Shown here one piece after another: positions 29,692 to 46,886 of a stretch of DNA of 64,000 nucleotides. How positions within the stretch are numbered: position 1 is the stretch's first letter; each line of letters starts with the position of its first letter. Source of the DNA: Paludibacteraceae bacterium. GTDB taxonomy: Bacteria > Bacteroidota > Bacteroidia > Bacteroidales > Paludibacteraceae. Made by a program: the position numbers and the translations under genes. The stretch is taken from NCBI GenBank assembly GCA_017448985.1, contig JAFSKL010000019.1, positions 16,933 to 80,932 of the forward strand. The letters run 5' to 3'. A model generated the notes under the pieces. The model had not been told where the DNA came from, ran no database searches, and saw only the letters and a program-made list of their open reading frames with translations.

Positions 29692-29835
29692 TTAGAAGAC
29701 AGGGGCACTTCCATGACGACCAGCGATACCGGAAGGTCCGGGAGGAGGAACCGGAAGCGAAGATGTACCAAGAATCGTTGCGGACGAAAGAATCATCACT
29801 ACCTCTGTCTGAGGGAAAATATATTGCTTTTTCAT
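29692..29835 (-). CDS. Small protein (47 residues) of the YxFP...APVF type, copy 1
   Basis: Reads MKKQYIFPQTEVV, then a short Ile/Leu/Ser/Thr stretch, then a Pro/Gly-rich part (VPPPGPSG), ending in SAPVF. It lies 35 bases after the stop of the 2073-residue protein and 14 bases before the 608-residue gene, on the same strand. A second small protein with the same start (M-x-K-x-x-Y-x-FP-x-x-E) and the same last four residues follows the 2270-residue protein. The paired position and shared ends argue that it is a real gene. Function unknown: a peptide precursor, a chaperone-like partner, or a regulatory peptide are all possible. Confidence 0.65.
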   Translation of the reverse strand: MKKQYIFPQTEVVMILSSATILGTSSLPVPPPGPSGIAGRHGSAPVF

Positions 29836-29870
29836 ATTCGTATTTTTTTTCTATTAGTTAATACACAATA

Positions 29871-32800
29871 TTATTTCAATAATTTTCCATCAATGGTATA
29901 AACCCTGTCACCACGGATGATCAATACCTGATTGTCTATCAGCACTTTGGTTGCTACTGCATCTTTGCTATCCACAATAGCTGCGTCAATGGCTGTTGAA
30001 ATCTGAGAACTCTTCGCGATTACGCGTAATCCATATTCACTGGTATTACCACTTTGGAGCATCAACGTATAATTGCCATCGCTGAGGTTGGTCACAGCCT
30101 CACCGTCACGCATGAGATAGAGGGCATACTCGGCATTGGCGTTGGCATTGACACAGGAAATCTGATACTCTCCTGCAACAGGAGCATAGATGCTTAACGG
30201 ATATTCAGCGCGTTCATTTGTCAGAGCAACTGTATTGACGCAGAGTTTCGCATCATAGCGGTCAATCCACATCTGTGCCACCTTGCTGCTGACGCCAAAC
30301 TTAGCGAGGTCCTGACCAATGACATACCGGTCTTCCTTCTCGTCAGTTGTCTCTACAATGAGACGGTCTGACATCTTGTTATCGCGAGCAATCTCTACCA
30401 CAAACTTCGACTCATTCTCTGCCTGCGGAGCACGGCGATATGCAGGAGCAGGAGACGATCCGGAGTGAACAGTAGCATAAACCGTACCCGGAGTAGCCAT
30501 CTGTACAAAGATCGGTTTCGCAACAATCAAACCGGAGGTCGCCCCATCGACTACCGTATAACTCTGGGCTCCGTTGTTGTCATATGTCTGATATTTTGCA
30601 ACACCGGTGCTCAAATCTGCCGTATAAAGGGCAGGGTTCGAGATGGCGTTCCAGTTAGCAAAATTCGCACCGGCACTACCGCTTGCCGTCGAAACGGTGA
30701 GGTTGCGTGTCTGGAGTGCCGCTCCGGCTTTCTTATGGAAGTCAAGCTTCGACTGACCTGATGCCAGATAGATCATATACAGTTTACCCGGAACCATCTC
30801 GGCGCCCGTCTCGTGGAGGAACTTCCAATACTGGTAGGTGTCATCCGTTCCGCCAACCTTGGCATAGGCAGCACCGTCAAACTCAATGATGTATATCTGA
30901 CTGCCTGAACTCAAGCGGCTGCTTGTACCATAGATACCCGTTGCCGGATTCACTCTCCACGGCACTGCTACGGCATACCATTGACCGGCATCAAAGGAAT
31001 GATTCAGCCGATAGATAGCTTCACCAATGATAGTTAGGTTCTCCGGATTCAGCAACTGACCGCAAGCAGAACCGTCGGAAGTGATAATAAGATCTTTCAC
31101 TTCACTATTTTCAGGAACATCCCATGTTTCACCCGTTGCAACCGTCTTATCTGCAATAGCAATCGGCGTGAAGTTTGCTGTAAGCGTAATATTCTCTGTC
31201 AGCGTGAAACTCGGGTGAGCAGCTTCAGTCTCGCCATCACTCCAACCATCAAAGGTATATTTCTCATCATTGTAACTTACTGCGACATTCGTAACATTCG
31301 TTCCGTAGTCAAATGTACCGGCACCCGTGAATGTACATACGCCGCTAAGGTTACTCTTCAAGGTAATTGTGTACTGGTTTAAAGTACCGGTAAACACTGC
31401 CTTGTAGTCAGCAGCAGCTTTGACTGTCTCAACCGTCTTGGTAGGATCTGCCGTATTCTGCCATACATACGTGTATGAATAGCCTTCAGCCGGATTTTGC
31501 TTTTCTACACCGCTTGTCGGAACGGTCGGCATTGCACCATAGGCCAACGACTGGGTTGTTCCGATCTGAGTAGTACCATCCTCTTGATAGAAGCGGATAT
31601 TGAAAGTCTTTGCCACTTCACGATAAACAGCGGTGTACGATTTTGCACTGGTATCAGAAACAGCCTCAGGAGCTGGCGACCAATGATCAAACTCATAGGT
31701 AAACTCGTTGGTGGCAGGTTTGCCTCCAAATGACTCATCTTCTTTCTGCGGTTTTCCATTAACAATAGCAGGAGCTACAGGCATAGCACCGACAGCCACA
31801 TCGCCTTGTTTGAGTACCGTAGTTCCGTTATAATCAAAGAATGTAACAGCATACTCCGTAGGAGGATCTTCTACGAAGGTAGCGGTATAGGTAGCATCTC
31901 CGGTAACTGCTGCCAAAGCAGGACTCCAAATAAGTGTATGACCTATTTTTGTCGGGGTGTTCTCACACTCAGGCCACTCATTATGGGTCAAGAACTGCGT
32001 TTCAATCAAAGAACCGCCTTCATTCCGGAAAGTAATGGTGTACATACGCGGTTTCTCGGTAAAGGTTGCCGTATAGGTCACATCACCTGTTACGCGTCCG
32101 GGAGTAGGTGACCAGCCCGTGAAATCATAGGTATAGTCGATATTGGACTCACGAGTGGGGTTCGTTCCCAAGAATTCAACTTCTGTACCGTAAGGAACTT
32201 CGTATTCATCTACCAAATCGCCAAATTTATCTGTCGTCTTAACGATTGTACCATCCCAGTTCTTCCATGTGATAGTACATGTCTTTTCTTTCCAGGACTT
32301 TGAATCATCATCCCAATAGTAATAGGTATCATTTTCGGGGTGGAGACAGTGGTAGAGATTATCCACATTTTCAACCTCCCACCATTGACAATCGTCCATC
32401 AGGATAAACAATCTTCCTGCACCGGCAGCATCGCTGAAGGTGTAATCCGCATTTCCGGATATGACACCCGCTGTTTTGGTCGCAGATACAGCCACATATC
32501 CTTGCGGTTTGGCATAATATACATCGCCTGTAGTTACATTGTGTTTAACCATGAAGCACTCATCCACCACCATGTCATCCCATTTGTCATTCTGATAGCA
32601 ATATGCATCACCTTCATGGGCATAATTATCTTCATCTGTGTAGGACTCTTTATAGGTTCCGTCACCATTCCGCAGTTTAGCAGGATAGAATGTCCTGTTC
32701 TCGAAAGTCCCGCTTCCTTTTACATTGTAAACAGGTCTCTCGCCCGCTTCAGAAGCGTCATCGTTGAAGATAAAAGTACCGGCATCTTCGTTAGAAGAGA

Positions 32801-35800
32801 AGATATTTGCGCCACTCGCAGAGGTATAAACAAAACCGGAAGCCGTTGCGAATGTACCATGCACATTAATAGCAGCATCCTGAGGACAAACCTGCTCATT
32901 GCGTACATCAGGTTTACCCGGAGTGGTACCTTTGTCTTCCCAACTCGGAGCATAGCGTACTGTCTTGGTGTAAGCCTCACTCTTAACCATATTAAGACCG
33001 TCATACTCATTGCAGTATGCATATTTATCCCAATCCTCGGCATCATACACATAAAGCGCACCGGTGTAAGATACCGGTTCATCGTCCACTTTTCCTCCTT
33101 CTACCCACGCATCGTAAGCATCCTTTTCATCTTCATCCATTGCTACCGTAACCGTAGATTCTTTATCCACCTCCACTTCTGCTCCCGGCAGCAGACTCGT
33201 GTTTTGCAGGAAGTCCATCGTACCGGAAAGCAAATGAATCTTAAAGTTGCATGTGAGCGGCAAGTCAAAGTGCGCCGAATTGAGACGGACAGGAATTGAA
33301 TATCCCATCAAAGATAAGTATCCTAAGTCAATTTCCATGGAGCCAATGTGTGCTGCACTATTGACATCATAAACTTGGATATCATTTTCTACATCATACC
33401 ATTTGCGGATCCATGTATTGTCGGCATCCGCTCCGTTGTCCAGCAAGAATATAGCATCATCATTCACACCGGATGTTCTATTAGCCACGCCTACCACTTT
33501 AATATCCGGTGCCATCATAGATACACTCAAGCCATATGATGCAATACCCTCCGACACAGCTGCTGAGGTGGAAAGTACTGCTCCCGGGTGATACTTCACC
33601 GGAGACTCTACGTTCTGGATAAAGTATTGGGTTACCGGGAATATTTTCTTATCGCTATCATCTCCTATTTGCAGCGGGAAATCATCCGGAATCATACCTG
33701 TAATCTTGACCGAAGTCATAGCTCCTTTCCAATCGCCCATCTGGAACATCTCACGCACCTTTGCATCACGTCGGGCGTCTGTTTCGCCCTTACCGGTCAT
33801 ATATCCCCAAGCGCGTATTTCGGAATTTGCCATAAGCGTCATGTGACTTCCTTCTTCCAGCACCAGATGTCCGTACGCTCCGGTAGGTTGACCGGTATAT
33901 GCCTCATTGCTGGCAAGTTGGGTACATGTCATTTCAATAGCACCGAAAACATCCATGTTCACACCCGAGGCAAATGTCAAACGTCTAAATTCGGTCGGTT
34001 GCACATAAGTATTTTGAGTATTTAAATCATTAAACACAATACGCGGCGGGAAATCATTAATCTCCTTAGCCTGCGTATCGCTCATCGGAACAACAATCGT
34101 TGCGTTTGCCGGTAAGGTATAATATCCGGCAGGCAAAGTATAATCATTCGTCATGAATATGACGATATTCTCTACAGATGGATTGTTGTTTGCATAAGCA
34201 ATCGCGTCCTCCAATTTTGCATAAGACACTTCGCCAATACGACAAACACCTGCACCGTTAGCTACAGCAGCTTCCTCAGTACCGATAAAATAACGATAGC
34301 CCTCGTTATATTCCACACCGGCCGAAACAAGCATCTCGGTTAAGCCGGAGGTAGATATTCCGTAAGTATTCGTTTTGAAATATCCGGAAGTGAAGTTAAT
34401 CGTTCCATACAACGGACCATCGAACTTACCGCATTCAACTTTTAGCGTACCTCCCGTACGCTGTGCGGAATAGGTCGCGCCCTTGATAGCCGCGAGTTTC
34501 TTTGTAGTTGCGGTACCGCCTTTGACTTCCAGACCGCAAGTGGTTCCTTCGATAGTTCCACGATTGATAGTCGCAGTACCGCCGGAAACAGTAACAGCCG
34601 TAGTTCCTTTAAACGTACCGCCTTTCATCACCAAGGTCTTGCTGGATGTCAAACCGCCATTAATCGTTCCCTGGATAGTGGTCAGCGAACCTTTATTGGT
34701 TGCTGCGCCGGTAATGGTTGCACCGTTCTGCTCTACCGTACCGCTTGCACCGATAGTGAGCGAACCAAATGTACCGCCATTAAGAATAGTTTTACCACCG
34801 TCCACGGTCAGAGCCGCTGCCGAACCGCCGAACGAACTATATGCGATAGTCACATTGCCGCTGGAAATAGTGATATCCTGTGCTATATTACCGTTCAAGT
34901 CCAGCGTAAAATCCTTTCCTGAGAATGTAAGGTCATCTGTAACAGGCTTGTTGATTTTCAGGATAGGATTGGTATAACTGCTAATATCCGTTCCAAGGAT
35001 TTCAGCCAAAGTACCGCTTACCGGACTTGCATCATCTTTACCTTCCAACAAGAAAGCTTCCGGACGGGCTGGATCCAAAGCAACAACATTGAGCGAAATA
35101 TTCAGCGATGAAGGACTATCACCTGCCATACTAACGGTCATGGTTGAATTTCTCGTACCATACCCGCCTCCTTTGTAGGTATAAGTCACAGGAATGGTAA
35201 TTCTTACCTTTTGTGCAGAAATCTCTTCCTTGTCGGCTAAGGCAGCCGCCAAATTATAGGTCCATTCGCTGCTACCGTTATTAGTAAAGGTGAAAGTCGC
35301 GAAGTCCGCTGCATCCAACGAAGCAGGATCTCCTTCCACCTCTACTGTTACCGACAAATTAGCAGTAGCATTTACAACGGCTTCCACATTGGCACTCGTT
35401 GCCACTGGATTACCAAGCAGGTACTTATTGAATACGGCATAAAGATTATTCGGATTACCCACTGCACCGGCATATGCTTCTTCCAAACCCGTAACCGTAG
35501 CGGGAGGAACCATATACATCACATTAGCGGAGTTTGGCAACACTTTGAAGTATGCACTTTCAGGCGCTGACTTATCCATAGCGGTATCCTGTCTCCAAAC
35601 TCGTGCATCATTGAAAGTCCAACCGTCGAAATAAGATCCGTCATCCCCTTGCGCATCGGCTTTAAAGTATGCAAATGGTGTCATAAAGAGATGGCTATCG
35701 TCAGCTCCGGCTTTTCTCATCATATTGCGTAAAATCGAGTTTACCTTGCTTGTTGGATTCGAATCTTCCACACTCTCCGTAGCCGTCAATGTCGCGCCAA

Positions 35801-36092
35801 TCACCATTGCATCATCATCAAAAGTGTCACCATTGGTAGGGTTTCCTGTGCCATAGGGCATAGCCATAGGCGGGTTATTGTAATTCAACCAAGCCACTGC
35901 AGTATTGTCAAAAAGCTCTCCCTGTGCATCCACCCAAGTCAGCTTGACTGTTCCCGAGCCCGTGGATGCGGATGATGTTTGAGCCTTAAACGCTGCAAGA
36001 TACACCGTCTGTCCCTCTTGCCCCCAAGTTGCACTCACGCCCATTGAGAGCACGAATAGGAGGGCTGATAATTTAAGAAATAATTTTCTCAT
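29871..36092 (-). CDS. Giant secreted protein with InlB-type repeats (2073 residues)
   Basis: A signal peptide ends near residue 25 (ATWGQ). Residues about 380-620 hold beta-solenoid-like units (GGTFKGTTAVTVSGGTATIN). Residues about 650-1020 are the region shared with the other two giants (AGYYTLPANATIVVP, IRAWGYMTG, QMGDWKG, FIQNVESPVKY). About 1340-1640 are five or more InlB/Flg_new-type repeats (YTYDFTGWSPTPG; TYEFDHWSPAPE). The C-terminal 400 residues resemble those of the 2270-residue protein (GKLYMIYLASG, NWNAISNP, DRLIVETTD, QMWIDRYD) and end in the tail KVLIDNQVLIIRGDRVYTID. Likely a surface-exposed binding protein. No promoter is seen in the 47-base gap upstream, so it is probably co-transcribed with the RelA/SpoT-domain gene. 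Confidence 0.75.
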   Translation of the reverse strand: MRKLFLKLSALLFVLSMGVSATWGQEGQTVYLAAFKAQTSSASTGSGTVKLTWVDAQGELFDNTAVAWLNYNNPPMAMPYGTGNPTNGDTFDDDAMVIGATLTATESVEDSNPTSKVNSILRNMMRKAGADDSHLFMTPFAYFKADAQGDDGSYFDGWTFNDARVWRQDTAMDKSAPESAYFKVLPNSANVMYMVPPATVTGLEEAYAGAVGNPNNLYAVFNKYLLGNPVATSANVEAVVNATANLSVTVEVEGDPASLDAADFATFTFTNNGSSEWTYNLAAALADKEEISAQKVRITIPVTYTYKGGGYGTRNSTMTVSMAGDSPSSLNISLNVVALDPARPEAFLLEGKDDASPVSGTLAEILGTDISSYTNPILKINKPVTDDLTFSGKDFTLDLNGNIAQDITISSGNVTIAYSSFGGSAAALTVDGGKTILNGGTFGSLTIGASGTVEQNGATITGAATNKGSLTTIQGTINGGLTSSKTLVMKGGTFKGTTAVTVSGGTATINRGTIEGTTCGLEVKGGTATTKKLAAIKGATYSAQRTGGTLKVECGKFDGPLYGTINFTSGYFKTNTYGISTSGLTEMLVSAGVEYNEGYRYFIGTEEAAVANGAGVCRIGEVSYAKLEDAIAYANNNPSVENIVIFMTNDYTLPAGYYTLPANATIVVPMSDTQAKEINDFPPRIVFNDLNTQNTYVQPTEFRRLTFASGVNMDVFGAIEMTCTQLASNEAYTGQPTGAYGHLVLEEGSHMTLMANSEIRAWGYMTGKGETDARRDAKVREMFQMGDWKGAMTSVKITGMIPDDFPLQIGDDSDKKIFPVTQYFIQNVESPVKYHPGAVLSTSAAVSEGIASYGLSVSMMAPDIKVVGVANRTSGVNDDAIFLLDNGADADNTWIRKWYDVENDIQVYDVNSAAHIGSMEIDLGYLSLMGYSIPVRLNSAHFDLPLTCNFKIHLLSGTMDFLQNTSLLPGAEVEVDKESTVTVAMDEDEKDAYDAWVEGGKVDDEPVSYTGALYVYDAEDWDKYAYCNEYDGLNMVKSEAYTKTVRYAPSWEDKGTTPGKPDVRNEQVCPQDAAINVHGTFATASGFVYTSASGANIFSSNEDAGTFIFNDDASEAGERPVYNVKGSGTFENRTFYPAKLRNGDGTYKESYTDEDNYAHEGDAYCYQNDKWDDMVVDECFMVKHNVTTGDVYYAKPQGYVAVSATKTAGVISGNADYTFSDAAGAGRLFILMDDCQWWEVENVDNLYHCLHPENDTYYYWDDDSKSWKEKTCTITWKNWDGTIVKTTDKFGDLVDEYEVPYGTEVEFLGTNPTRESNIDYTYDFTGWSPTPGRVTGDVTYTATFTEKPRMYTITFRNEGGSLIETQFLTHNEWPECENTPTKIGHTLIWSPALAAVTGDATYTATFVEDPPTEYAVTFFDYNGTTVLKQGDVAVGAMPVAPAIVNGKPQKEDESFGGKPATNEFTYEFDHWSPAPEAVSDTSAKSYTAVYREVAKTFNIRFYQEDGTTQIGTTQSLAYGAMPTVPTSGVEKQNPAEGYSYTYVWQNTADPTKTVETVKAAADYKAVFTGTLNQYTITLKSNLSGVCTFTGAGTFDYGTNVTNVAVSYNDEKYTFDGWSDGETEAAHPSFTLTENITLTANFTPIAIADKTVATGETWDVPENSEVKDLIITSDGSACGQLLNPENLTIIGEAIYRLNHSFDAGQWYAVAVPWRVNPATGIYGTSSRLSSGSQIYIIEFDGAAYAKVGGTDDTYQYWKFLHETGAEMVPGKLYMIYLASGQSKLDFHKKAGAALQTRNLTVSTASGSAGANFANWNAISNPALYTADLSTGVAKYQTYDNNGAQSYTVVDGATSGLIVAKPIFVQMATPGTVYATVHSGSSPAPAYRRAPQAENESKFVVEIARDNKMSDRLIVETTDEKEDRYVIGQDLAKFGVSSKVAQMWIDRYDAKLCVNTVALTNERAEYPLSIYAPVAGEYQISCVNANANAEYALYLMRDGEAVTNLSDGNYTLMLQSGNTSEYGLRVIAKSSQISTAIDAAIVDSKDAVATKVLIDNQVLIIRGDRVYTIDGKLLK

Positions 36093-36139
36093 GATTTTTT
36101 GTTTTTTAGTTAATATTTTTGTTAATTAATTTTCGTTCT

Positions 36140-37186
36140 TTAGTTGCGGTACACCGTACATGATGCGTTGAATGCCTCCAGCGCCAATAGGAACTCCTTC
36201 GTGTCCAGGAAGTAACTCGGATACGCCTCGCGCAACTCCTGCATCTTCTCAATCGACACCAGGATTACTGCCTCGTCCCCACTCAGGCTCTGCTCCGTCT
36301 GCGTAAACATAACCGATGCCTCATCCTCTTGCTCCAGCGTGTATGGACGTCCCGTCACTATCTGGTTCCGGAAGTTGATCAGCAGCACGCAGTACCCCGT
36401 GTTACTCTGCGCAAACGTCTTCTCGTCGTTCACCGTCACACGCAGCGCTTGCAACTGATCCAGCAGCTTATGCTTGTCCAAAAACTCAATATATTCGCGG
36501 CAGTACTGCTCATGCGTATAGTCCGCATAACGTGCATTCACAGCACAAGCTTCTTTCTGCGCAAAGATCGCACTCACCAGCCGGAAAAACTCCCTCCAGA
36601 TGCTGTTGTCGTCAATGTTCGCCTTCAGCGATGTACGCGAAATCAGACTCGCTGTCTCCACGGCCATCGCCCAACTATGCTCCAAACGCGTACGGATCTG
36701 CAGTTCCACGCGCAGTCCGTCATAATCCGCATTCTCCGAGTGGTATTTATATACGTAATGAATGCTCCGGTAGCCGCTATCTTTCGGCGCAACAATATAG
36801 TTGTTCACCTTCTCCAACTCGAAATGCACCGGACTAAAAGTCGCCAATGCCGCTTCACAGGCATGCATATCCTCCAGCGTCTCAAATACAAACCGCGCAC
36901 CACCTATATCCTGCAATCCACCCAGCCGCATACCGGTTGCCTCGTTATTGCGAAGCTTCTCAATGATCGATGTCATTCGCTTGACGCGCTGCGAGTAGAA
37001 AGCATATTTGACGTTTTGCTCAGCCAAATAGCCGGTCAGGCTCTCCACGAACTCACGAAGCACCGGCAAATGGGTCATTCGCCAATCACCTACCACCTTA
37101 ACTGCTTCTGCGCGTTGGAAGGCATCCACACCGTCCGCATACAAGTAGGTTCCTATTCTATTTAGTTGACTCCGCGAGTATTTCAT
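36140..37186 (-). CDS. RelA/SpoT-domain nucleotidyltransferase-like protein
   Basis: 348 residues. A small-alarmone-synthetase-type domain is at about residues 40-190: R67/K69 with TSIIEKL, D93 in DIGGARFVF, YRSIHYVY at 139-146 and ELQIRTRLEHSWA from 161. These are the ATP- and acceptor-binding residues of (p)ppGpp synthetases. There is no hydrolase (HD) domain, no TGS or ACT domain. The C-terminal 150 residues are not recognised. It could make alarmones or, like toxic SAS proteins, modify tRNA or adenine nucleotides. It has its own promoter, and the giant 2073-residue gene follows after 47 bases. Confidence 0.8.
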   Translation of the reverse strand: MKYSRSQLNRIGTYLYADGVDAFQRAEAVKVVGDWRMTHLPVLREFVESLTGYLAEQNVKYAFYSQRVKRMTSIIEKLRNNEATGMRLGGLQDIGGARFVFETLEDMHACEAALATFSPVHFELEKVNNYIVAPKDSGYRSIHYVYKYHSENADYDGLRVELQIRTRLEHSWAMAVETASLISRTSLKANIDDNSIWREFFRLVSAIFAQKEACAVNARYADYTHEQYCREYIEFLDKHKLLDQLQALRVTVNDEKTFAQSNTGYCVLLINFRNQIVTGRPYTLEQEDEASVMFTQTEQSLSGDEAVILVSIEKMQELREAYPSYFLDTKEFLLALEAFNASCTVYRN

Positions 37187-37208
37187 TACGCTTTACACTT
37201 TGAGCGTG

Positions 37209-37239
37209 CAAAGTTACAAATAAATTTTTAAATACACAA
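37209..37239 (-). promoter_or_regulatory. Promoter of the RelA/SpoT-domain gene
   Basis: On the minus strand TTG (37237-37239), 20 bases, TAACTTTG (37209-37216). The surrounding 70 bases (37204-37275) resemble the promoter region of the ORF6N gene at 46851-46920. Confidence 0.75.
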
Positions 37240-37317
37240 GTATTTATTAATAAAAGTACAAAAAATCCACAAATTGATACATAAATGTTGCAAAAAGGAG
37301 TTATCGAAACTGCGCGT

Positions 37318-38616
37318 TTACAACACTTCGCCTCTAACCAAATCCAATTGTTTCCGGATTGGTTGTTTCATCCAATCAGGAATAGTGTCACCGATGTACT
37401 CGCCAAAACGCCCGATTACATCCAATGTTCGGCCGATAATCTCATTGGCTTTGGCCGCTTTTATTCCCGCTTCTGCTGCTACAGCCAACAAATCGTTGCG
37501 CGTGATATGCAGGCGCTTCCCATTCACCGACATCTGATGCCTACGCGTATATCCTTGTCCCACCGCATACGATATATCGAATGCAGGAGATAATTTCCAA
37601 ACACCATCCGTGTCCATCAGAAACTCCACATTTTTCGTATGGTCATCTTGGTTACACCCAATCACATTGAATACCATCCGCCGATACGCTTGCTCCATCT
37701 CCGGCTGTGTCAACCTAAGGCCTCGCATCACGCGGAACAGCTGCTCGTACGACCACGCATCGGGTTGGTTATAGTCATAGTGCGCCATGCCGCAAAGCGA
37801 CACCATATGCACGCGATGACTGCCTCCTATCCGGTCGAAACGCTTGGTCATGAAATGATGCCGTTTCCCGTCTTCCAGCAGCCGCGACTCCATCATCTCT
37901 ATCCCGCAATCCAACACCATCCGATAGTACGCATACTCCAGGCAGCCATAGTTCGTCGTCTCGCTATACGAACCAGGATTATTCTCATCCACGCCATCCA
38001 ACTTCAACAGCCAATGCTCATATCCTTCCGGTGCGTTCACCTGCCCCGAACGCAAATCTCCCGTTTCTTTGTTGTACGCCACAACGGCTTTCGGTCTGGC
38101 ACCACCGGCTGAGGTACCTACGCGCAAGATGGTCAACAACGCCTCTTCGTTTGTCTTGAGGTTCGTATCAAATTGAATTCGCTCTCCCAATACCTCCGCG
38201 GTTGCAGCAATCATTCCTTCCAAATCAATCGCCACCTGCTTGTTCAGATCCTTGCGCTCCTGTGGTTCAAAACGCAGCGCCCCCATTGCTCGCGAGCCCT
38301 GATAGAGCAAGCGTTCAATGGTGGTATAGCTGTCTTTCGAACGACCGGATTTCTCCAGCCAATGATTGATGATTGCCGTACCGAACTTATCCGGCAGACA
38401 GTCGGCGATGAAACCGGGCAGACCTTTGAACGTTCCGAACGGCAGTTGTGAGAACTCATAGACCTTATCTTTTTCCGGAGTCACAAAAAGAGGCGACGGG
38501 TTGTAGCCACTGCTGACAAACTCGGGCGTGTACGCCATTGTGATACGCCCGGACTCATCTTCCGAGAGGGATGCCATATGCAAATCCCAAAGATAAACAT
38601 TCGCAAAATTAATCAT
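37318..38616 (-). CDS. hipA: HipA-type serine/threonine kinase toxin
   Basis: 432 residues from the ATG at 38616, which overlaps the hipB stop by 8 bases; a start 45 bases upstream would lie entirely in hipB. The HipA kinase fold is supported by GTSAGGARPKAVV (nucleotide-binding loop region), HWLLKLDG, the catalytic loop NQDDHTKN and the metal-binding LSPAFDISY. HipA toxins phosphorylate glutamyl-tRNA synthetase or other targets and cause growth arrest; HipB neutralises them. The full-length protein with intact catalytic loop suggests an active module. Confidence 0.88.
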   Translation of the reverse strand: MINFANVYLWDLHMASLSEDESGRITMAYTPEFVSSGYNPSPLFVTPEKDKVYEFSQLPFGTFKGLPGFIADCLPDKFGTAIINHWLEKSGRSKDSYTTIERLLYQGSRAMGALRFEPQERKDLNKQVAIDLEGMIAATAEVLGERIQFDTNLKTNEEALLTILRVGTSAGGARPKAVVAYNKETGDLRSGQVNAPEGYEHWLLKLDGVDENNPGSYSETTNYGCLEYAYYRMVLDCGIEMMESRLLEDGKRHHFMTKRFDRIGGSHRVHMVSLCGMAHYDYNQPDAWSYEQLFRVMRGLRLTQPEMEQAYRRMVFNVIGCNQDDHTKNVEFLMDTDGVWKLSPAFDISYAVGQGYTRRHQMSVNGKRLHITRNDLLAVAAEAGIKAAKANEIIGRTLDVIGRFGEYIGDTIPDWMKQPIRKQLDLVRGEVL

Positions 38617-38914
38617 GACGTGGGCGAATACGTTTAGGGGTCTTACCTTCCTGCTTGGCAATCAGCAACGGACTAACCAGTGCGTGCGTCTCGAAGTTAT
38701 TGAGAATCTCCAGTTTGTTGAGCACACGCAGCATCGCCACTACGGACTCCAATTTCATTCCTTTTCCATTCTCCACTTGCGTGACCGTAGAGCGTGACAG
38801 GCCTGCGCGTTCCGCTAATTGCTGTTGGCTCAATCGCGCATTGATTCGCATCTGCCGCATCTGTTTGCCCACATACTGCAAGAGCGCTTCATTGGTCATA
38901 AAATAGTCTATCAT
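38609..38914 (-). CDS. hipB: HipB-type HTH antitoxin and repressor
   Basis: 101 residues, with a Cro/C1-type helix-turn-helix at about 20-75 (QQQLAERAGLSRSTVTQVENG). A basic tail (GKTPKRIRPRHD) ends the protein. The start could also be at the second Met (residue 6). Gene order hipB-hipA and the 8-base overlap are as in known HipBA systems. Two palindromic sequences in its promoter region are candidate operators. Confidence 0.85.
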   Translation of the reverse strand: MIDYFMTNEALLQYVGKQMRQMRINARLSQQQLAERAGLSRSTVTQVENGKGMKLESVVAMLRVLNKLEILNNFETHALVSPLLIAKQEGKTPKRIRPRHD

Positions 38915-38926
38915 AACGCCTACTTT

Positions 38927-38963: not shown

Positions 38964-38985
38964 CTATTTCAATCAAAAACCGCTG

Positions 38986-39017
38986 CAAATGTACTACAAT
39001 TATTTGACATATGCAAA
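38986..39017 (-). promoter_or_regulatory. hipBA promoter
   Basis: On the minus strand TTTG (39014-39017), 20 bases, TACATTTG (38986-38993). The segment 38981-39058 is similar over about 78 bases to the direct repeats at 49410 and 54623. Confidence 0.75.
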
Positions 39018-39090
39018 TTTTTTGCACAAAAAAATCAAATTCATTTGAAGTTTTTGCCCATTTTCAGCCGATCCAGGGTACACAAACACG

Positions 39091-39116
39091 AAACGGGCGG
39101 CAAGAGCCACCCGTTT
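39091..39116 (-). terminator. Terminator after the 51-residue protein gene
   Basis: AAACGGGCGGC pairs with GCCACCCGTTT around AAGA with one mismatch, 21 bases after the stop on the minus strand. The 223-base gap up to hipB also contains the hipBA promoter and operators. Confidence 0.7.
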
Positions 39117-39137
39117 ACGCGAGATAGGTATTCCGGA

Positions 39138-39293
39138 TTAGAAGACAGGAGCTTCATCCGGTTTGCCAGGTCGTCTCGCAGGAGCACCGCCAGGGTTAGA
39201 GGCTCCGGTAGAAAAATCTTCAGAGAACATCAAATAACGAGTGTTCAAACAAGTTATTTCCACACTGGGGAATGTATATACTTTCTTTTCCAT
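39138..39293 (-). CDS. Small protein (51 residues) of the YxFP...APVF type, copy 2
   Basis: Begins MEKKVYTFPSVEITCLNT and ends PDEAPVF, with a Gly/Pro/Arg-rich second half (NPGGAPARRPGK). The ATG at 39293 lies 10 bases after the stop of the 2270-residue giant protein; the longer frame to 39344 would overlap that gene. It shares its beginning (M-x-K-x-x-Y-x-FP-x-x-E) and last four residues with the 47-residue protein behind the 2073-residue giant. No signal peptide or membrane helix. Last gene of its unit, closed by a hairpin. Function unknown. Confidence 0.68.
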   Translation of the reverse strand: MEKKVYTFPSVEITCLNTRYLMFSEDFSTGASNPGGAPARRPGKPDEAPVF

Positions 39294-39303
39294 ATTCACA
39301 TCA

Positions 39304-42300
39304 TTATTTAATGGTTTGACCTGTGATCGTATAAACCGCACCATTGCGGAAGATATACACTTTATCGTCTATCAACAACTTCTGTGCCGAAGATTGTTCC
39401 GTTGCCTGAACAGGATCAATGTCCGTAGGTACATTTCTGCGTACGAGCAACAAGCCATAGTGCTGCGTTGTACCCTTCTCCAGATTAGCCGTATACGGGC
39501 CATAATAGAGATTCCATATCGGACGGCCGTCGAAGGTCAGATAGAGCACCGCATCTTCTTCGGGACGCTCATTGATATAAATCTCATACTCACCTGCATT
39601 GGGAACAGAGATGCCTAACGGATAAACGGCTTGATTATTAATCATCGTAGCTGTGTTCTTACAGAGTTGCTCGCCGTACTTTTCCACCCACATCTGTGCG
39701 CGCACAGGACTGATGCCGGCCTTAGCGAGGTCGGCTACAATGATGTATTCCTCCGCTTTGTCCTCATCTGCGAGAATGAACAAACGGTCCGCCATCTCGC
39801 CATCCACAGGTGCAATCTGCACATCGTAACGCTCTGCGTTTGTTTGCGTTTTCGCACGACGTGGAGCAGTTTTGATAGCTATCTCACTTTCGTCATCAGC
39901 CTTGTTGACAACAACAGGATCTTGATGATTCGGCACCTGAACGAAGACGGCTTTGCCAACGATGAACTTCTTAGCATCCATATCATACGTCTGGTAGCCA
40001 TCATTACCAAACGCTCCACCATCATGCACCTGACATTCCGTTACGCCTGCTCCAAGCAATGCATGGAAAGTCTTCGGGTTAGCGATACCATTCCAGTTAT
40101 TATTGCCGCCTTTTTCGCCGGTGGTGATCAACTCGACATCTTCGTTATAGTCAATCGTTGCGCCGGAAGCTTTCGTAAAGCGGAGAACATTGACATGACC
40201 AACATGCTTGTCAAAGGCAATCATATACAACTTACCGGGGTATAACTTATGCTCAGACTGAGCATCAATATATTTCCAGCAGTTTTTGCTCGGTCCATTC
40301 GATGCCCGTTCTTCCGTATCGTAATAGATTATATCGTAATCATCCGAACCAAGGATATTAAGAGATGCTGTCTTTTCCTTGAGCGGAGCCACTTCATCCA
40401 AGTCAATCACGAACGGTACACCGAATGCATTCCAATGCCATGGATCGGTATTAAACTCATAATCGAAATAAGCATGACCATTGACTTTAAGTAGAACACG
40501 ATTGACATCCAGAATATTTCCGGAATCGTCATTGGAAGCCTCCAAGATGAGATCCTCAGTGGTTAACATGCTACCCTCCTCAACCGTTAAATTTCCTTTT
40601 ACCTTTACAATAGTAACATTAACAGTAGTGTTCTCCGTTATTTCAATCGGGTTCTCCGCTGTTGCCACCAATTCGGTAATGGACTCAAATTGGGCAGTAA
40701 AGGTAACCTCCTTGCCGGCTGCTATCGCCTCATCTTGATTATCCCATCCTATCCATCTGTACATTTGACCATCAGTGGTAGGACGAGTTGGTGCATCACC
40801 TCCATATTCAGGAAGCGGAGTATATCCATAGGTTCGTGTACTACTATCCAAGAGGTCTCCGTTCCAGTTTATCCATTTAATATCATACTCCACCTCTTCT
40901 TTACTATAACGAGCATAGAAAGTTTTGGTGCACGATTCAGAAGCCGTACCTAATGATGTGAGGACTTCGCCCTCCGCACCCGTAACTGCAGTTTCTGACC
41001 ATCCGATAAACGTATATTCATATTGATTCGTAGAAGGACGTGTAGGCTCTGGACCATTATACACTATTTCTGCACCTTCTGCAAACGGTTCACTCCAGCA
41101 CTCACTCCATTCTTCATTATCAAAATTCATGAAAGTTATAGTGTAAGTCTCTACCCACAAAGCCGTGATTGTCAAATCTTCATCAGGCATGGTCTCGGGA
41201 TTACCACTCGGCGAGCTACTCCATCCACTGAGTTGATAACCATCCTTGGTTACTGTTGTCGGATAAGTGATTGTGCTGCCATATGCCAACGTATTGTTCG
41301 CCTCCGTGTAAGAGCCTGACGGGGTTCCACCATCAAAGTTCCATAATAACTTGTGAGTGTTAATAGCAAATATCGGAGTGTAAACATTACTTGTTCCAAC
41401 CGTAATAGTACGCGGGTTATCAGTAATGTGGTCACTCCACTCTACAAAGTGATAATGTTCAGCAGGAACGGCCTCAATTGTCTGCTCTGAGCCTTCCGGA
41501 TATGAATTACCGCTTACTACACCCGTTACGGTACCGCCTTCATCAGGGATGGTTATAGTAATAGGTTGCGTATTCCTTGTAAATGTAGCACTTATTGTTA
41601 CATCAGCATCCGGCATTGTGAATTGATTATTGGTAACAGTCACTGCGTTTTCGCCGGCTGTAACACTCCAAGAAGTGAACGAATAATAAGAATCTGCCGT
41701 TGCTGACAAAGTAACTGTCTGACCAAATTTGCCACTTACTACTTCTACACCTCCAACTTTAACCGTGTACGAACCACCACTCGCAGGAGAAGAAGTAATA
41801 TTATTGGTATTGCGGTCATAGTAGATATTAACTACCGTACCGCTAACAGCAATCGTTACTTGCTCAAACGACCGTGCCGTGAAGCCTTCGTAAGTCTTGG
41901 CTTCTGCAGCCGTTTGTTCACCAATCGTTCCGGAAGTGGTTTGCCTGTCAGCCTCTACTTCGTCATATCCGTCAGCAGTCAGGTTCTGCTGCCAGTGTTT
42001 AACCGTATAGTTTGCTATATCGGCCTCAAATGTAGCAGTATATGTTACACCTCCTACCGGAATCGTCACTTCACGCGAAGCGTTCGTGTTATCGTCATCC
42101 CACTTCACGAACTTGAAACCGGACTTCGGGGTAGCGGTAATAGTAACATTGGTACCATAATCATACAATCCATCACCGGTTACGGTACCCATAGTCTCAT
42201 CAGCAGACAAGACAGTCAAAGTATATTGATCAATGGTCCAACTTGCCGTAATCGTCAAGTCTGCATCCGGCATAGAAGTTGCATCACTGCTCCAACCCGC

Positions 42301-45300
42301 AAATGTGTACCCCGTCTTACTTAAAGTCGGATAAGTAATCGCACTGCCATATGCCAACGCATTGTTCGCCTCCGTGTAAGAGCCGGAAGGTGTTCCGCCA
42401 TCAAAGTTCCATGCAAACTTATGAGTGTTCACTGTCCACTTAGCATACAGCGTGATATCTTTTGTAAAGGCGGTTGCTCCGAGAGAAGTTACCTTTGATT
42501 CTGCCTTGCAATTCGAAAGCGTATGCCAGCCGTCAAATGTATATCCGGATTTATTATTAACGCCATTCAAGGTCGTAGTCGTACCATAGGTATGCTTCGT
42601 CGGGTGCGCATCCGGGGTGTCAATATGCGTGCTGGAGAATGCAGCCTTGCCTTGGTCCATATAAGTAATATCATACTGCTTTTGTGTCCAATGCGCATAA
42701 TAGGTTGCATTAGCAGTTACTTTGGTAGTCTGGGTTATCTGCGTTCCTCCCGACTCCGTAGTAAACCAACCTGCTAATGTATAACCATCCCGATAAGCAG
42801 CAGGTAATTCTCCGATAAAGGCGTCTTGGGAATATGCCATAGTAGTTGCCTCCGTAGTACCACCATTCGCATTCCAAGTTACCGTCTTCGGATTCTTCAT
42901 CCATTTATTCAAGTTCTTACTATAGATGAATTTATCTCCGGAGACAGCCCCTGCAGTCGCTAAATAACTGCCATCGCCATTGAGTAGTTGGGCAGGAGTC
43001 ATGGGAACATTTACAGATGTACCCAATTTATTACTTGCATATTGGATATCATTAGAATTACCAGGTGCTGCTGCGGATAAATTGATGGTGCCAGTTCCAT
43101 TAGATGAGATGATAGCAGCGCCATTACTGGTTGTGTATAACGAGCCACTAACGCTCATTGTACCATTCAGATCAACTTTTGCATCCACCAAATCTGCCTT
43201 TGTGCGAGTATAAGTACGTGTCGGAGTAAATGAAGAACGGCTCCAATTCGTCCCTCCGCTATAGAGGTTAAATTCAGCAAAACCTTTATCTATCCATTCA
43301 TCTCGATCATAAATGATTAGTTTACTGGAAATATTTACAGTTACTCCCTCATCAACTATAAGTTCTGCTCCGGGTAAAAATGACACCGCATATGGGACAC
43401 TAAATGTGGAAGCAGATCCGTTAAGAGTATGACATTTAACCGACATATTACTCGTTATAGGAAGGACATAGTTTCTCGTATCTATAGTCATTGTATATAT
43501 GGTCATGCTTATGTAGTTCAACTTTGCATTACCGTAAATATCATAAGTAGTTCTATCCGTAGCAGGATTATATGTTCTTACTAAATAAGATCCGGATGAA
43601 GTCAGACCAAACAATCCCGTATCATTTGTTCCCACTAAAGCTGCATTGACATTTTTAATCGAACCAGAAGGTACCGTCATCTGGGCATACACAGTTTCGG
43701 TAGCACCATATTCAATTTTTAGCGGGGATTCAACATTCTGAACATAGTACTGATTTAAAAAGAATGCTTTTTCATTCCAACCAGATGCCGCAGAGCCACC
43801 AGGATTATTTTGATGTTGGAACACCTCATGAACTTTGCCACCATTCTTCACAGTAACAAGTCCCTGGATTCCCGTAACAAACCCCCAACAATAGAGATTA
43901 GCGCTATTATTGATTGTTATAGTACTATTTTTTGACATTTCAATACGTCCAAAGGCTGTTGCAGGAGCTCCGCTTCCCGCACCGCCACCATTCGGTGCGC
44001 ATAAATCGGCCATCACATACAAACTGCCCGCTACGGTTATGTTTGCGCCAGAGCCAAGAGTAAGCAGTACATATTGACTTGCACTTGAATAAGCCTGATT
44101 TTTCTCATAGGTCGACGAAGGCGATGTGTATGTTGCGCCTGTTGATTCGTATGGTACAATCAATGACACCCCACTCGGAATGGTATAATCCCCGGCCTCA
44201 ACATACGCATTCTGCACCACGGTGATTTTTCCACTGCTGCCTACTGCAGTCAATGCCTCTCTGAGTGTCGCATACTGCGTACTATTCGTGCTTACCAAGA
44301 ATGGTTTAGCATCACCAAACGTAACACCTACCGTCTTTGCCGCAGTACCCGTTGTCTCGTATAGGCTGGATGGTGTAGTTTTGGGTGTGCTTCCGTCCGT
44401 CCATGATGTAACACCATAGCCAGTCTTTGGAGTTGCTTCCAAGCGAAGCACATCGGTCTTGTGTTGCGCTTGTGTCGTGTTAGCTGTTTTTCCAACTGAG
44501 GTAAATACTTCTGTGAACGTCCATACATACTCATCATCTACTTCAACTATATCCAACACAGAAGCGGTATATTCACCTTTCGTTTGATCAGGCTTATTAT
44601 AGGTGATGTTTATGGTTGTAGCATCTTCCACAAACTTCGCGTAAAGCGTAATCGTATCAGGATTTAAAGGGTCGGTACTTGCCGTGCTCGAAGCCGTATA
44701 TTTACCATCGGAAGCCACAGATGCTGCAACTGTGCATGCTGCATCCGTGTACCATCCGCTTAGTTTGTATCCATATTTAGGTTTGGCATATACATAGACA
44801 TCCGTTGTATGCGTTACCCGATATGCATAGGCGAATTGCGACGACTCGCTTGAAAATTCCGTATATGCCGGTGATGTCAACTTCGTATCACTTACCAGCA
44901 CCATACCCAATCCCGGTGTAGCCGGTTGAGCTTGTACCTCCATATAGTAGAGGTTGAAATCAAATGCTGCATAAACCGTTTTTGTCGTCGGGCTACCTTC
45001 TGCATGCGAACTAACCGCAAACGTATATGCCCAACTTGCATTAGTACTCAGCGGAGTGCCTGTACAGGTCGCATTATCATACCAGCCGCGGAACACATAG
45101 CGCTTATCATTAGGCTGGGCATACAGATAATACGTTTGATTAACACTTGCAGGAGGAGTAGCATCACTATTATACGTTGTAATCTTCGCCGTTTGTGGAT
45201 TTTCCGAGAATGTTACACCGCTCGTTCCTTCAATATCGGAAATATAGATAGTTCCTCCACCCGGCATACTATACGGAACGGCTGCAATACTGGCATCCAG

Positions 45301-46116
45301 TTGACCAAAATATTTTGTTGCGGTTTTGAATTTGGCATATACAGATGTCTCGCCACTTACCGTAAATGTATACGATGAGTTAGTTTCAAGAGCCGTTCCT
45401 GTAAACGAAGCATTGTTGTACCACCCATCAAAATTGGATGCGTCGGACGAAACCGTAACCACATCACCCGCATAGGATGTTTGTTGACCGGATGCAGCAG
45501 TCGAACTCTCAGTCATGGAGAAATTATAACCTCCGGTGGTAAAAGCATTATTTTCAATAGTCGTATAGGAATACGATACCGTGTAAGAACCATCTACCGG
45601 TACACCGAACGTAACGGTAACAGTATTTGGATCTGTTTTCCATTTAGCAGTCGCCGTTCCGGTGTTAGTGTCATCTGCCTTATTTGAAGTAACCGTAATC
45701 TTGGCGCCAGCAGCTTTACTGGTATTGTCAATAGTCACACCTTCATAAGATCCACTTACTGTCCATCCGTCGAATGCATACCCACGAGCTGCCTTTGCCC
45801 ATGCGTAATAGGAATTCGTCTTGGACGATCCTCCTGTATCACTGGATTGCCCAACGCTTCCAGATGCACCATATTGGCTATCTTCGGTTGGAGCAGTATT
45901 GTTATTGACCGTCGAAGGAGTATACACCAATCCCTTACCGGTGTCATTGGATGTAACATTAAAAGCTGTATAATAATTACTTCCAGCCCACATCTTCCCT
46001 ACACCGAGAAGGATGATCATAGTAAGGATTAGGCTTCTCGTCACAAACTTGTTTTGCGTTGTGATCAATTTCTTTGCCACACTTGTGGCTTGTGTAAATG
46101 TTGTTTTCATATTCAT
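39304..46116 (-). CDS. Giant secreted protein with InlB-type repeats (2270 residues)
   Basis: A long N-region precedes a hydrophobic segment and cleavage site near residue 44 (GKMWAGS). Residues about 45-620 contain loosely repeated beta modules with KYGYKLSGWYTD-like motifs. Residues about 640-940 are the region shared by all three giants (AGDYTIPSGVSLIVPY, NLYCWGF, YVQNVESPLKIEYGA). From about 1080 to 1800 there are ten or so InlB repeats; one unit (NFDGGTPSGSYTEANN) occurs twice almost unchanged. The C-terminal 430 residues align with those of the 2073-residue protein and end in the tail KLLIDDKVYIFRNGAVYTIT. Probable surface adhesin. No promoter is seen in the 30-base gap to the upstream ORF6N gene. 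Confidence 0.75.
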   Translation of the reverse strand: MNMKTTFTQATSVAKKLITTQNKFVTRSLILTMIILLGVGKMWAGSNYYTAFNVTSNDTGKGLVYTPSTVNNNTAPTEDSQYGASGSVGQSSDTGGSSKTNSYYAWAKAARGYAFDGWTVSGSYEGVTIDNTSKAAGAKITVTSNKADDTNTGTATAKWKTDPNTVTVTFGVPVDGSYTVSYSYTTIENNAFTTGGYNFSMTESSTAASGQQTSYAGDVVTVSSDASNFDGWYNNASFTGTALETNSSYTFTVSGETSVYAKFKTATKYFGQLDASIAAVPYSMPGGGTIYISDIEGTSGVTFSENPQTAKITTYNSDATPPASVNQTYYLYAQPNDKRYVFRGWYDNATCTGTPLSTNASWAYTFAVSSHAEGSPTTKTVYAAFDFNLYYMEVQAQPATPGLGMVLVSDTKLTSPAYTEFSSESSQFAYAYRVTHTTDVYVYAKPKYGYKLSGWYTDAACTVAASVASDGKYTASSTASTDPLNPDTITLYAKFVEDATTINITYNKPDQTKGEYTASVLDIVEVDDEYVWTFTEVFTSVGKTANTTQAQHKTDVLRLEATPKTGYGVTSWTDGSTPKTTPSSLYETTGTAAKTVGVTFGDAKPFLVSTNSTQYATLREALTAVGSSGKITVVQNAYVEAGDYTIPSGVSLIVPYESTGATYTSPSSTYEKNQAYSSASQYVLLTLGSGANITVAGSLYVMADLCAPNGGGAGSGAPATAFGRIEMSKNSTITINNSANLYCWGFVTGIQGLVTVKNGGKVHEVFQHQNNPGGSAASGWNEKAFFLNQYYVQNVESPLKIEYGATETVYAQMTVPSGSIKNVNAALVGTNDTGLFGLTSSGSYLVRTYNPATDRTTYDIYGNAKLNYISMTIYTMTIDTRNYVLPITSNMSVKCHTLNGSASTFSVPYAVSFLPGAELIVDEGVTVNISSKLIIYDRDEWIDKGFAEFNLYSGGTNWSRSSFTPTRTYTRTKADLVDAKVDLNGTMSVSGSLYTTSNGAAIISSNGTGTINLSAAAPGNSNDIQYASNKLGTSVNVPMTPAQLLNGDGSYLATAGAVSGDKFIYSKNLNKWMKNPKTVTWNANGGTTEATTMAYSQDAFIGELPAAYRDGYTLAGWFTTESGGTQITQTTKVTANATYYAHWTQKQYDITYMDQGKAAFSSTHIDTPDAHPTKHTYGTTTTLNGVNNKSGYTFDGWHTLSNCKAESKVTSLGATAFTKDITLYAKWTVNTHKFAWNFDGGTPSGSYTEANNALAYGSAITYPTLSKTGYTFAGWSSDATSMPDADLTITASWTIDQYTLTVLSADETMGTVTGDGLYDYGTNVTITATPKSGFKFVKWDDDNTNASREVTIPVGGVTYTATFEADIANYTVKHWQQNLTADGYDEVEADRQTTSGTIGEQTAAEAKTYEGFTARSFEQVTIAVSGTVVNIYYDRNTNNITSSPASGGSYTVKVGGVEVVSGKFGQTVTLSATADSYYSFTSWSVTAGENAVTVTNNQFTMPDADVTISATFTRNTQPITITIPDEGGTVTGVVSGNSYPEGSEQTIEAVPAEHYHFVEWSDHITDNPRTITVGTSNVYTPIFAINTHKLLWNFDGGTPSGSYTEANNTLAYGSTITYPTTVTKDGYQLSGWSSSPSGNPETMPDEDLTITALWVETYTITFMNFDNEEWSECWSEPFAEGAEIVYNGPEPTRPSTNQYEYTFIGWSETAVTGAEGEVLTSLGTASESCTKTFYARYSKEEVEYDIKWINWNGDLLDSSTRTYGYTPLPEYGGDAPTRPTTDGQMYRWIGWDNQDEAIAAGKEVTFTAQFESITELVATAENPIEITENTTVNVTIVKVKGNLTVEEGSMLTTEDLILEASNDDSGNILDVNRVLLKVNGHAYFDYEFNTDPWHWNAFGVPFVIDLDEVAPLKEKTASLNILGSDDYDIIYYDTEERASNGPSKNCWKYIDAQSEHKLYPGKLYMIAFDKHVGHVNVLRFTKASGATIDYNEDVELITTGEKGGNNNWNGIANPKTFHALLGAGVTECQVHDGGAFGNDGYQTYDMDAKKFIVGKAVFVQVPNHQDPVVVNKADDESEIAIKTAPRRAKTQTNAERYDVQIAPVDGEMADRLFILADEDKAEEYIIVADLAKAGISPVRAQMWVEKYGEQLCKNTATMINNQAVYPLGISVPNAGEYEIYINERPEEDAVLYLTFDGRPIWNLYYGPYTANLEKGTTQHYGLLLVRRNVPTDIDPVQATEQSSAQKLLIDDKVYIFRNGAVYTITGQTIK

Positions 46117-46146
46117 TTTGTATCTTTAATATTTCTGCTATTTGGT

Positions 46147-46767
46147 TTATTTCTTTTCGTCTTTATTGCCACGGATTACTTTATGACGGATCTTTACCAT
46201 CGCAAAATTCAATTCCACTTCCGTCTCTGTGCCCACAGTTTCGTATTGCGACCCCAAAATATCTCCAATCAATTCTCCGCTCTTTTGCATCAGGCTCTTC
46301 TTTTGTTTCTCATCCTCAGCTTGTACCGCAGACTGCATCGTCCTTGCCAACTCACGTATCTGCACAAAAGTTTCAATAATCGCCAAAGTCGTTTGCGTCG
46401 CCCGCGGACTCTTCAAAATCGTTGCCAACATATAGAGACCGCGCTCCGTAAAAGCAGTAGGGATCTTACGAGCACCGCCCCAACTTGAAGTCAAATTTTT
46501 CGACCGCAAGTCTGTAAGTTCCTGATTATCAGTCAATTGCGAACTTGATGTCAAAATTTTTGATTTCAAGTCTGCTACTTCTTGCTTATCAAGTTTAAAC
46601 AAATATCCGACAGGGAACTTATCCGGATTATTCTTTACCGCTTGATTAACCACTCTGGTCTCTACACCATATAACTGAGCCACATCGGCATCCAACAATA
46701 CCGGCTCGCCGCGCAGAACAATAATCCTATCCTTTACTTGTTCGTATTTAACGATTTCGTTTGTCAT
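46147..46767 (-). CDS. ORF6N-domain protein
   Basis: 206 residues from the ATG at 46767 (MTNEIVKYEQ); a start at 46806 adds 13 basic residues and is less likely. The N-terminal ORF6N domain has VLLDADVAQLYGVETRVVNQ and, later, AFTERGLYMLATILKS. Such domains occur in phage and accessory DNA-binding proteins. Between the two halves is an internal duplication (LKSKILTSS / LRSKNLTSS). The C-terminal half is helical (ELARTMQSAVQAEDEKQK). It precedes the 2270-residue giant gene by 30 bases, in the position taken by the RelA/SpoT-domain gene before the 2073-residue giant. Confidence 0.8.
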   Translation of the reverse strand: MTNEIVKYEQVKDRIIVLRGEPVLLDADVAQLYGVETRVVNQAVKNNPDKFPVGYLFKLDKQEVADLKSKILTSSSQLTDNQELTDLRSKNLTSSWGGARKIPTAFTERGLYMLATILKSPRATQTTLAIIETFVQIRELARTMQSAVQAEDEKQKKSLMQKSGELIGDILGSQYETVGTETEVELNFAMVKIRHKVIRGNKDEKK

Positions 46768-46855
46768 CTCGTTTCTCTTTCTTCGTTGTTGCTTTTTATG
46801 CCTCATTCACACGTGCAAGTACACACGAATCATAAAGCTTTGCACAAAAAGCGTG

Positions 46856-46886
46856 CAAAGTTACAAAAATGAAATGATATACACAA
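46856..46886 (-). promoter_or_regulatory. Promoter of the ORF6N gene
   Basis: On the minus strand TTG (46884-46886), 20 bases, TAACTTTG (46856-46863). The region resembles 37204-37275 before the RelA/SpoT-domain gene. Confidence 0.72.

Follow-up and report, generated by a model that had tools for sequence, protein, structure and literature searches.

Linear polyphosphorylated peptides (LPP) have been described in Bacillota (PMC13381572, 2026). According to the passages of that paper on the pathway, precursors of 35-200 residues carry a YxxP within the leader motif YxxPxVLxHQxIxFETxxS and are handled by a SipW-homologous peptidase, a discrete RRE (recognition element for ribosomally synthesised and post-translationally modified peptides, RiPPs), an HprK-like kinase, a nucleoside triphosphate (NTP) transferase and an MsbA-like exporter. 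The RRE presents the leader to the SipW-like peptidase, and the kinase targets Ser3. Passages of PMC12710340 and PMC13381572 also give YxxP as a recognition motif of lasso-type RREs. The word 'bacteroid' does not occur in the main text of PMC13381572, and neither 'signal peptidase' nor 'YxxP' occurs in the available passages of PMC10352776, which surveyed 1,136 Bacteroidales genomes for RiPPs. Here we describe a gene unit of a Paludibacteraceae bacterium in which a giant secreted-type protein is followed by a tiny YxxP protein that looks like a RiPP-type precursor. The window, that is the whole stretch of DNA that was analysed, spans 64,000 nucleotides (GenBank assembly GCA_017448985.1, contig JAFSKL010000019.1, positions 16,933 to 80,932 of the forward strand) and holds two such units on its minus strand:

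39304..46116, minus strand: giant secreted-type repeat protein of unit 1, 2270 aa, with InlB/List-Bact repeats and a C-terminal domain common to three paralogues in the genome (open reading frame [ORF] listing)
39138..39293, minus strand: tiny YxxP protein t51 of unit 1, 51 aa, C-terminal end DEAPVF (family profile E 1.5e-14, itself a profile member)
29871..36092, minus strand: giant secreted-type protein of unit 2, 2073 aa, with one marginal repeat match (ORF listing; C-terminal comparison)
29692..29835, minus strand: tiny YxxP protein t47 of unit 2, 47 aa, C-terminal end GSAPVF (family profile E 5.8e-13, itself a profile member)
27852..29677 (ATG 29677, stop 27852), minus strand: 608-aa secreted-type protein, the recurrent third member of unit 2

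The conserved core of these units is the pair formed by the giant and the tiny protein gene. A search with the last ~400 residues of the 2073-aa giant gives three strong relatives in the same genome, namely the 2270-aa giant of the window, a 2855-aa protein on contig C32 and a 3088-aa protein on contig C3, and directly after each of the four giants lies a protein of 47-51 aa ending (A/V)PVF. The C32 pair is followed in addition by a protein homologous to the 608-aa one (43% identity). Using a profile of the four C-termini, we collected 79 related loci from Bacteroidales/Paludibacteraceae genomes, many of them from rumen or gut samples; 78 giants were testable, the contig of the remaining one (L087) ending after 44 nt. 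For 77 of the 78, a small ORF of 25-90 aa that carries [KRN]..Y..P close to its beginning is found no more than 400 nt downstream, L078 being the sole exception; at L076 and L084 it was visible only with a fixed-motif look within that distance. Among other ORFs of at least 200 aa in these loci, which served as the matched control, 4/399 had such a follower, and one of the four is a tail-bearing protein missed by the filter.

Two other scans were less complete. With a strict pattern, a tiny ORF was found after 73/79 giants (one of them a wrong pick) and after 9/432 controls, of which seven follow tail-bearing proteins, six with a convincing tiny ORF. When the ORF was chosen without any motif, one was present after 75/78 giants, 71 with the YxxP in the fixed span and three more with it further in, compared with an ORF after 98/353 controls and the motif in seven. 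The gap between giant and tiny gene has a median of 35 nt (n = 72) and is within 100 nt in 69 cases. In 18 of the 79 loci the tiny gene is immediately followed by the gene of a 608-aa protein homologue. An earlier note on this DNA had listed the 608-residue protein in brackets after the tiny gene. That note had proposed a three-part unit of accessory gene, giant and tiny gene; across the relatives its giant and tiny parts hold, whereas the preceding accessory gene is not kept.

The linkage also holds when read from the tiny gene. All nine tiny genes at E<=1 in the window's genome are preceded by a protein carrying the tail motif, immediately in eight cases and with a gene in between in the ninth. 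So are 7/7 in G345, which belongs to the same genus, and 28/28 testable ones in other genus genomes (29 loci, the best per genome; L216, at a contig edge, was left out). In G211, from another family, the protein ahead of the tiny gene has a different, GKK(V/M)I-like tail in 3/3 cases, and the C-termini of the tiny proteins differ too. A genome may hold up to 11 matches to the tiny profile. In an order-wide search at E 1e-4 the profile found matches in 3/247 genomes, the window's genome included, a count in which distant forms will have been missed because the profile was built from that genome and its relatives.

Judged by their layout, the tiny proteins resemble RiPP-type precursors, with a leader of ~20 residues (KKxYxxPxxEVxxL...[LM]) and a proline-rich core of 20-30 residues. 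Anchored on the tyrosine, 68 nonredundant members give the pattern K-K-x-Y-I-x-P-x-x-E-V-x-x-[LIV]. This leader pattern is followed in 41/72 by a hydrophobic-[LM] pair with a Ser/Thr three residues on (shuffled mean 3.0), which would fit the Ser3 targeted by the LPP kinase if cleavage follows the pair. An APxRR-like motif occurs in 37/72 cores (loose pattern; shuffled 0.4), the C-terminal residue is F or W in 51/72 (shuffled 2.8) and the core often terminates APxRRTxVF; as the motifs were picked after seeing the counts, the shuffle contrasts for the leader end and core are descriptive. The pooled ratio of nonsynonymous to synonymous differences (pN/pS) over six close pairs is 0.42, which suggests that a protein is under purifying selection. 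The tiny proteins were assigned to no family by Pfam and NCBIfam scans, and by eye they have no apparent signal peptide. At L033 and L050 the tiny protein has an NRALxAKK-like stretch between its start codon and the YxxP; the C32 giant has it as well, close to its own N-terminus, and the stretch is possibly a mobile coding fragment.

The giants are probably surface proteins exported by the type IX secretion system (T9SS), given their secretion-like N-termini (by eye), their huge repeat architecture and the T9SS translocon SprA encoded in the genome (PF14349, E 1.6e-184). Their C-terminus carries the motif KVLIxxxVYIIRGxxVYxxxGQxVK and in the model is almost entirely beta, ending in a hairpin and including a linker of low confidence; the model gave no convincing known fold. 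No T9SS C-terminal domain (CTD) family was among the giants' Pfam and NCBIfam matches, the presence of CTD models in those libraries being unchecked, and the giant C-terminal profile touched gingipain CTD chains only at E 0.24-0.32 and not at the end of the profile. The linker contains A(P/A/V)..RR in 33/47 aligned giants, and this pattern occurs nowhere else in 17,775 residues. It lies 187-200 residues before the giants' ends (residue 1882 of the 2073-aa, 2084 of the 2270-aa and 3505 of a 3704-aa giant) and is similar to the ends of many tiny cores. With one strict pattern, no co-variation was seen between the motifs of giant and tiny protein (8 pairs with both, 21 with the giant's only, 4 with the tiny protein's only, 8 with neither).

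A candidate recognition element for the leaders is encoded elsewhere in the genome, which has one PqqD match. The best PDB match of the RRE profile is the lasso RRE TfuB1 (6jx3_B, E 0.0018), from the same entry whose TfuA leader the tiny profile touches. PqqD is present in 78/101 genomes of the genus and profile-detected tiny genes in 56/101; 56/56 of the latter are PqqD-positive (Fisher p 1.3e-10), and a tiny-profile match was found in 0/23 PqqD-negative genomes, where tiny-like genes may still lie behind weak giants. The status of three PqqD-negative and 25 tiny-negative genomes follows by elimination. Giants with a strong match (E below 1e-50) occur in 62 PqqD-positive genomes and one PqqD-negative genome. 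In 14 genomes with a strong giant and no tiny-profile match, a YxxP tiny ORF was found on reading in all 14, the PqqD-negative G031 among them, and the fuller count of genomes with both tiny gene and PqqD is therefore 69/70. Beyond the 101 genomes sampled, tiny genes and PqqD occur together in G211 and G345 and are both missing from G141 and G251.

The RRE gene is in turn linked to a peptidase-like gene. We compared 20 stretches (L180-L199), picked for a giant and PqqD on one contig, in which the recurrent order is secreted-type proteins, a peptidase-like gene of ~150 aa, PqqD, often a tail-bearing protein, sometimes accessory genes, and the giant. By pattern, the peptidase-like gene is present in 19/20 and PqqD in 20/20; within flanks of ~1.5 kb of PqqD it is found in 28/30 loci, using a profile whose training set included some of these genes. 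Ser30, His71 and Asp101 are invariant in 21 aligned sequences. Just before the peptidase-PqqD pair, many of these home loci have a secreted-type protein of ~180 aa, often ending CNCFxYxPE, for which no informative family was found in the two members tested. In G211, genes for an HprK-like kinase, the peptidase, PqqD and an ATP-binding cassette (ABC) exporter adjoin, and an NTP_transf_5 gene (E 1.4e-32) is found one gene beyond them on the opposite strand, so that by sequence similarity this genome would hold counterparts of all five LPP pathway genes.

We propose, and consider it probable, that each giant is co-produced with its own RiPP-type precursor, that an RRE and a peptidase act on the precursor in trans and that the resulting peptide works with the giant at the surface. 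The unit would consist of a T9SS-exported giant, then its own precursor gene and, in about a quarter of loci, a protein of the 608-aa type. The PqqD-type RRE, of which a genome usually has one, encoded away from the units and next to a serine peptidase resembling signal peptidase I, may bind the YxxP leaders of all the dispersed precursors in trans; the peptidase would then remove the leader, and the core peptide would be exported and perhaps act with its giant at the cell surface. What the data show is the conserved giant-tiny linkage, the conserved leader/core architecture, the co-occurrence of RRE and tiny genes, the linkage of RRE and peptidase, and the T9SS translocon gene; binding, cleavage and export are inferred, and the way in which the mature peptide would serve its giant is a guess. 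As an extension, the T9SS sortase might link the mature core peptide to its own giant when the C-terminal signal is cut, after the RRE and SipW-like peptidase free its amino end, leaving it as a tag or anchor; the APxRR-like motif of tiny cores and of the giant linker, ~190 residues before the end, would be the common recognition element. This idea comes from PMC10202324, a T9SS review that in its relevant passages lists short peptides among the nucleophiles of the sortase PorU, and we hold it to be very unlikely. Among the matches listed from the open-licence literature, there was no paper on peptides of this type joined to T9SS cargo.

Several observations weigh against the proposal. Other proteins with a tail-like end are followed by a tiny gene in only 6/30 cases, and the tiny profile's only PDB match, the TfuA leader (6jx3_A), is weak (E 0.37, 11 positions). 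The C-termini of LPP precursors are reported to be highly variable, whereas many tiny core ends are alike. The genome G031 (84% complete) has a giant and a tiny gene and no PqqD match, and in nine PqqD-positive genomes a tiny match and a strong giant are both lacking. PqqD changes nine times on a 70-genome rpoB tree, where independent pairs were concordant in 4.4/7 on average and never opposite, which is not significant (median p 0.125); the reverse pair test gave 4.5/8 (p 0.03-0.125). The genus peptidase matches the archaeal-type signal peptidase I family TIGR02228 weakly (E 0.0079, below cut-off), that of G211 also falls below the cut-off of 51.85 (E 6.7e-9, 35.8 bits), and the peptidase-like protein has no PDB relative. 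Likewise, the HprK-like match in G211 (E 1.6e-9, 37.3 bits) is below its cut-off of 200. No HprK, NTP transferase or exporter was noticed among the genes listed for the 20 home loci; no family or genome-wide search for them was made.

The tiny proteins could instead be cytosolic partners of the giants, such as a co-translated secretion pilot or a chaperone for the C-terminus, with the RRE serving as a cargo adaptor and no peptide product. Their tight linkage to the giants' C-terminal domain, weaker for other tail proteins, would suit such a role, as would the lack of an apparent signal peptide and an APxRR-like motif present both in many tiny cores and in the giant linker that is disordered in the model. 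We nonetheless regard it as unlikely: there are tail proteins (for example at L006, L008 and L009) without a profile-detected tiny gene, the 3704-aa giant likewise has none, the motifs do not co-vary within pairs under the strict pattern, and the leader/core layout and the peptidase beside the RRE fit processing better. The layout, the RRE and peptidase, and the ABC exporter in G211 would also suit pheromone signals or bacteriocin-like products placed behind the giants merely for co-expression. For such products, however, one would have to accept as many as 11 tiny matches in one genome, many with a similar core end, and tiny genes that, wherever a neighbour was read, follow a tail-bearing protein; we rate this distinctly improbable.

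A further alternative, that of the earlier note, joins the giant and tiny gene functionally to an effector-like first gene and thereby surface display to a stress or regulatory enzyme. The genes and signals that bear on it, together with the third giant of the window, are:

46147..46806, minus strand: ORF6N gene, 219 aa, a variable accessory outside the core (PF10543 E 7.4e-30; PADLOC candidate PDC-S05)
36140..37186, minus strand: RelA/SpoT-domain gene, 348 aa, a variable accessory outside the core (RelA_SpoT PF04607 E 1.3e-17; PADLOC candidate PDC-S33)
46830..46940, minus strand: promoter-like region of the ORF6N unit (motif search; alignment)
37188..37330, minus strand: promoter-like region of the RelA unit, related to that of the ORF6N unit (motif search; alignment)
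39091..39116, minus strand: terminator-like hairpin closing unit 1, 11 pairs, after the t51 gene (hairpin scan)
27799..27828, minus strand: terminator-like hairpin closing unit 2, 13 pairs and a T run, after the 608-aa gene (hairpin scan)
16543..27657, minus strand: third giant, 3704 aa, same C-terminal class, followed by a 262-aa gene and no tiny gene (weak C-terminal match E 9.8e-6; APRRR linker)

The layout described by the earlier note was recovered exactly when the ORFs were read again, including sizes, the minus strand and the gaps of 47/35/14 nt in the RelA/SpoT unit and 30/10 nt in the ORF6N unit. The related promoters that it saw before the first genes align over a common sequence, TTTTTTG(C/T)ACTTTTATT...TTGTGTAT...TTTGTAACTTTGCACGC, with promoter-like sites overall near chance (41 vs 37.8 in shuffles). 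The terminators that it placed after each unit correspond to the terminator-like hairpins 39116-39091 and 27828-27799, the longest two of the scanned region, in a scan that overall is at chance level (18 sites vs 16.5 in shuffles). The short distances of 30-47 nt and the related promoter-like regions of the window speak for a joint unit, as do the ORF6N, Bro-N, RhuM, AlbA_2 or YhcG genes that variably precede some other giants, home loci included. The relatives do not follow suit. Among 62 with at least 500 nt upstream, the nearest upstream ORF is on the same strand, at least 100 aa and within 100 nt in seven and on the opposite strand in 19, and in none of the related loci is a RelA homologue directly upstream of the giant. 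Since the upstream genes vary and no RelA homologue takes this position, the link to a stress enzyme is unsupported, and we think the functional joining of first gene and giant extremely improbable. The second partner of the giants is more likely the peptide-processing pathway encoded elsewhere in the genome.

Within the window's genome, the genes upstream of the four giants are RelA, ORF6N, a recombinase-like gene and the PqqD gene (the last two by eye, PqqD by profile). The recombinase-like gene resembles the resolvase at L067 (PF00239), with a promoter-like stretch between it and the giant; between the PqqD gene and its giant lies a hairpin with a T run (by eye). An accessory first gene was rejected as a member of the unit, as the relatives' upstream genes vary freely. 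An apparent enrichment of ORF6N/Bro-N/RhuM-type genes upstream of giants (13/37 homologues) was discarded as biased; it is inflated because 12/15 queries had been taken upstream of giants (2 from the window, 10 from relatives) and six of the 13 are the queries themselves. The ORF6N queries matched six genes, three of them upstream of giants and one of these being the query itself, and homologues of HipA (9), DUF3737 (3), the ATPase (1) and RelA (1) in the 79 loci are never upstream of the giant. Both first genes of the window match PADLOC candidate models, and the accessory genes look like insertions on the giant's upstream side.

Other features of the window stand apart from the two units. 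A HipA gene (Pfam) and a HipB-like ORF (by eye) occupy 37318-38914 between them, with their own promoter-like sequence, and an ATPase_2-type gene at 47884-49368 matches the PADLOC candidate PDC-S27 (E 1.1e-196). Neither the HipA pair nor the third giant is named in the earlier note. The gene 16 nt downstream of the 3704-aa giant (15738-16526) encodes a 262-aa membrane-type protein rather than a tiny protein; its N-terminus, MNNYNYTRPP, contains a YxxP, perhaps by chance.

If the proposal of a precursor processed in trans is correct, a RiPP-type leader-recognition module would serve dispersed surface-protein operons rather than a compact biosynthetic cluster; one RRE would usually attend to as many as about ten precursors, every one of them paired with a giant or another tail-bearing protein. 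The RRE/SipW-peptidase pathway, described in Bacillota, would extend to Bacteroidales, a class of small proteins without a Pfam or NCBIfam family would be explained and a peptide role for surface proteins would become testable. The giant-tiny pairing in this group of gut bacteria may point to a connection of peptide processing with the bacterial surface that has so far gone unrecognised.

Compared with known systems, lasso TfuB1/TfuA (PDB 6jx3) provides the best PDB matches of both the RRE and the tiny profile, the latter weak, whereas the B2 protease of lasso systems, Transglut_core3 (PF13471), has 0 matches in the window's genome. With T9SS cargo bearing a C-terminal sorting domain the giants have in common their huge secreted-type repeat architecture, a conserved C-terminal region and SprA in the genome, but they end in a C-terminal region with the motif KVLIxxxVYIIRGxxVYxxxGQxVK, and no CTD family was among their Pfam and NCBIfam matches. 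As in LPP systems, a YxxP-type leader on a small precursor occurs with a discrete RRE; the candidate leader peptidase resembles SipW/archaeal-type signal peptidases below the family cut-off, and G211 also has putative counterparts of the HprK-like kinase, the NTP transferase and the exporter, the last of the ABC type. The leader differs, being YxxPxTEVxxL by anchored counts without the HQ and FET consensus of LPP leaders, and so does the setting: LPP systems belong to Bacillota, while here, in Bacteroidales, the precursors are dispersed, each behind a giant or another tail-bearing protein.

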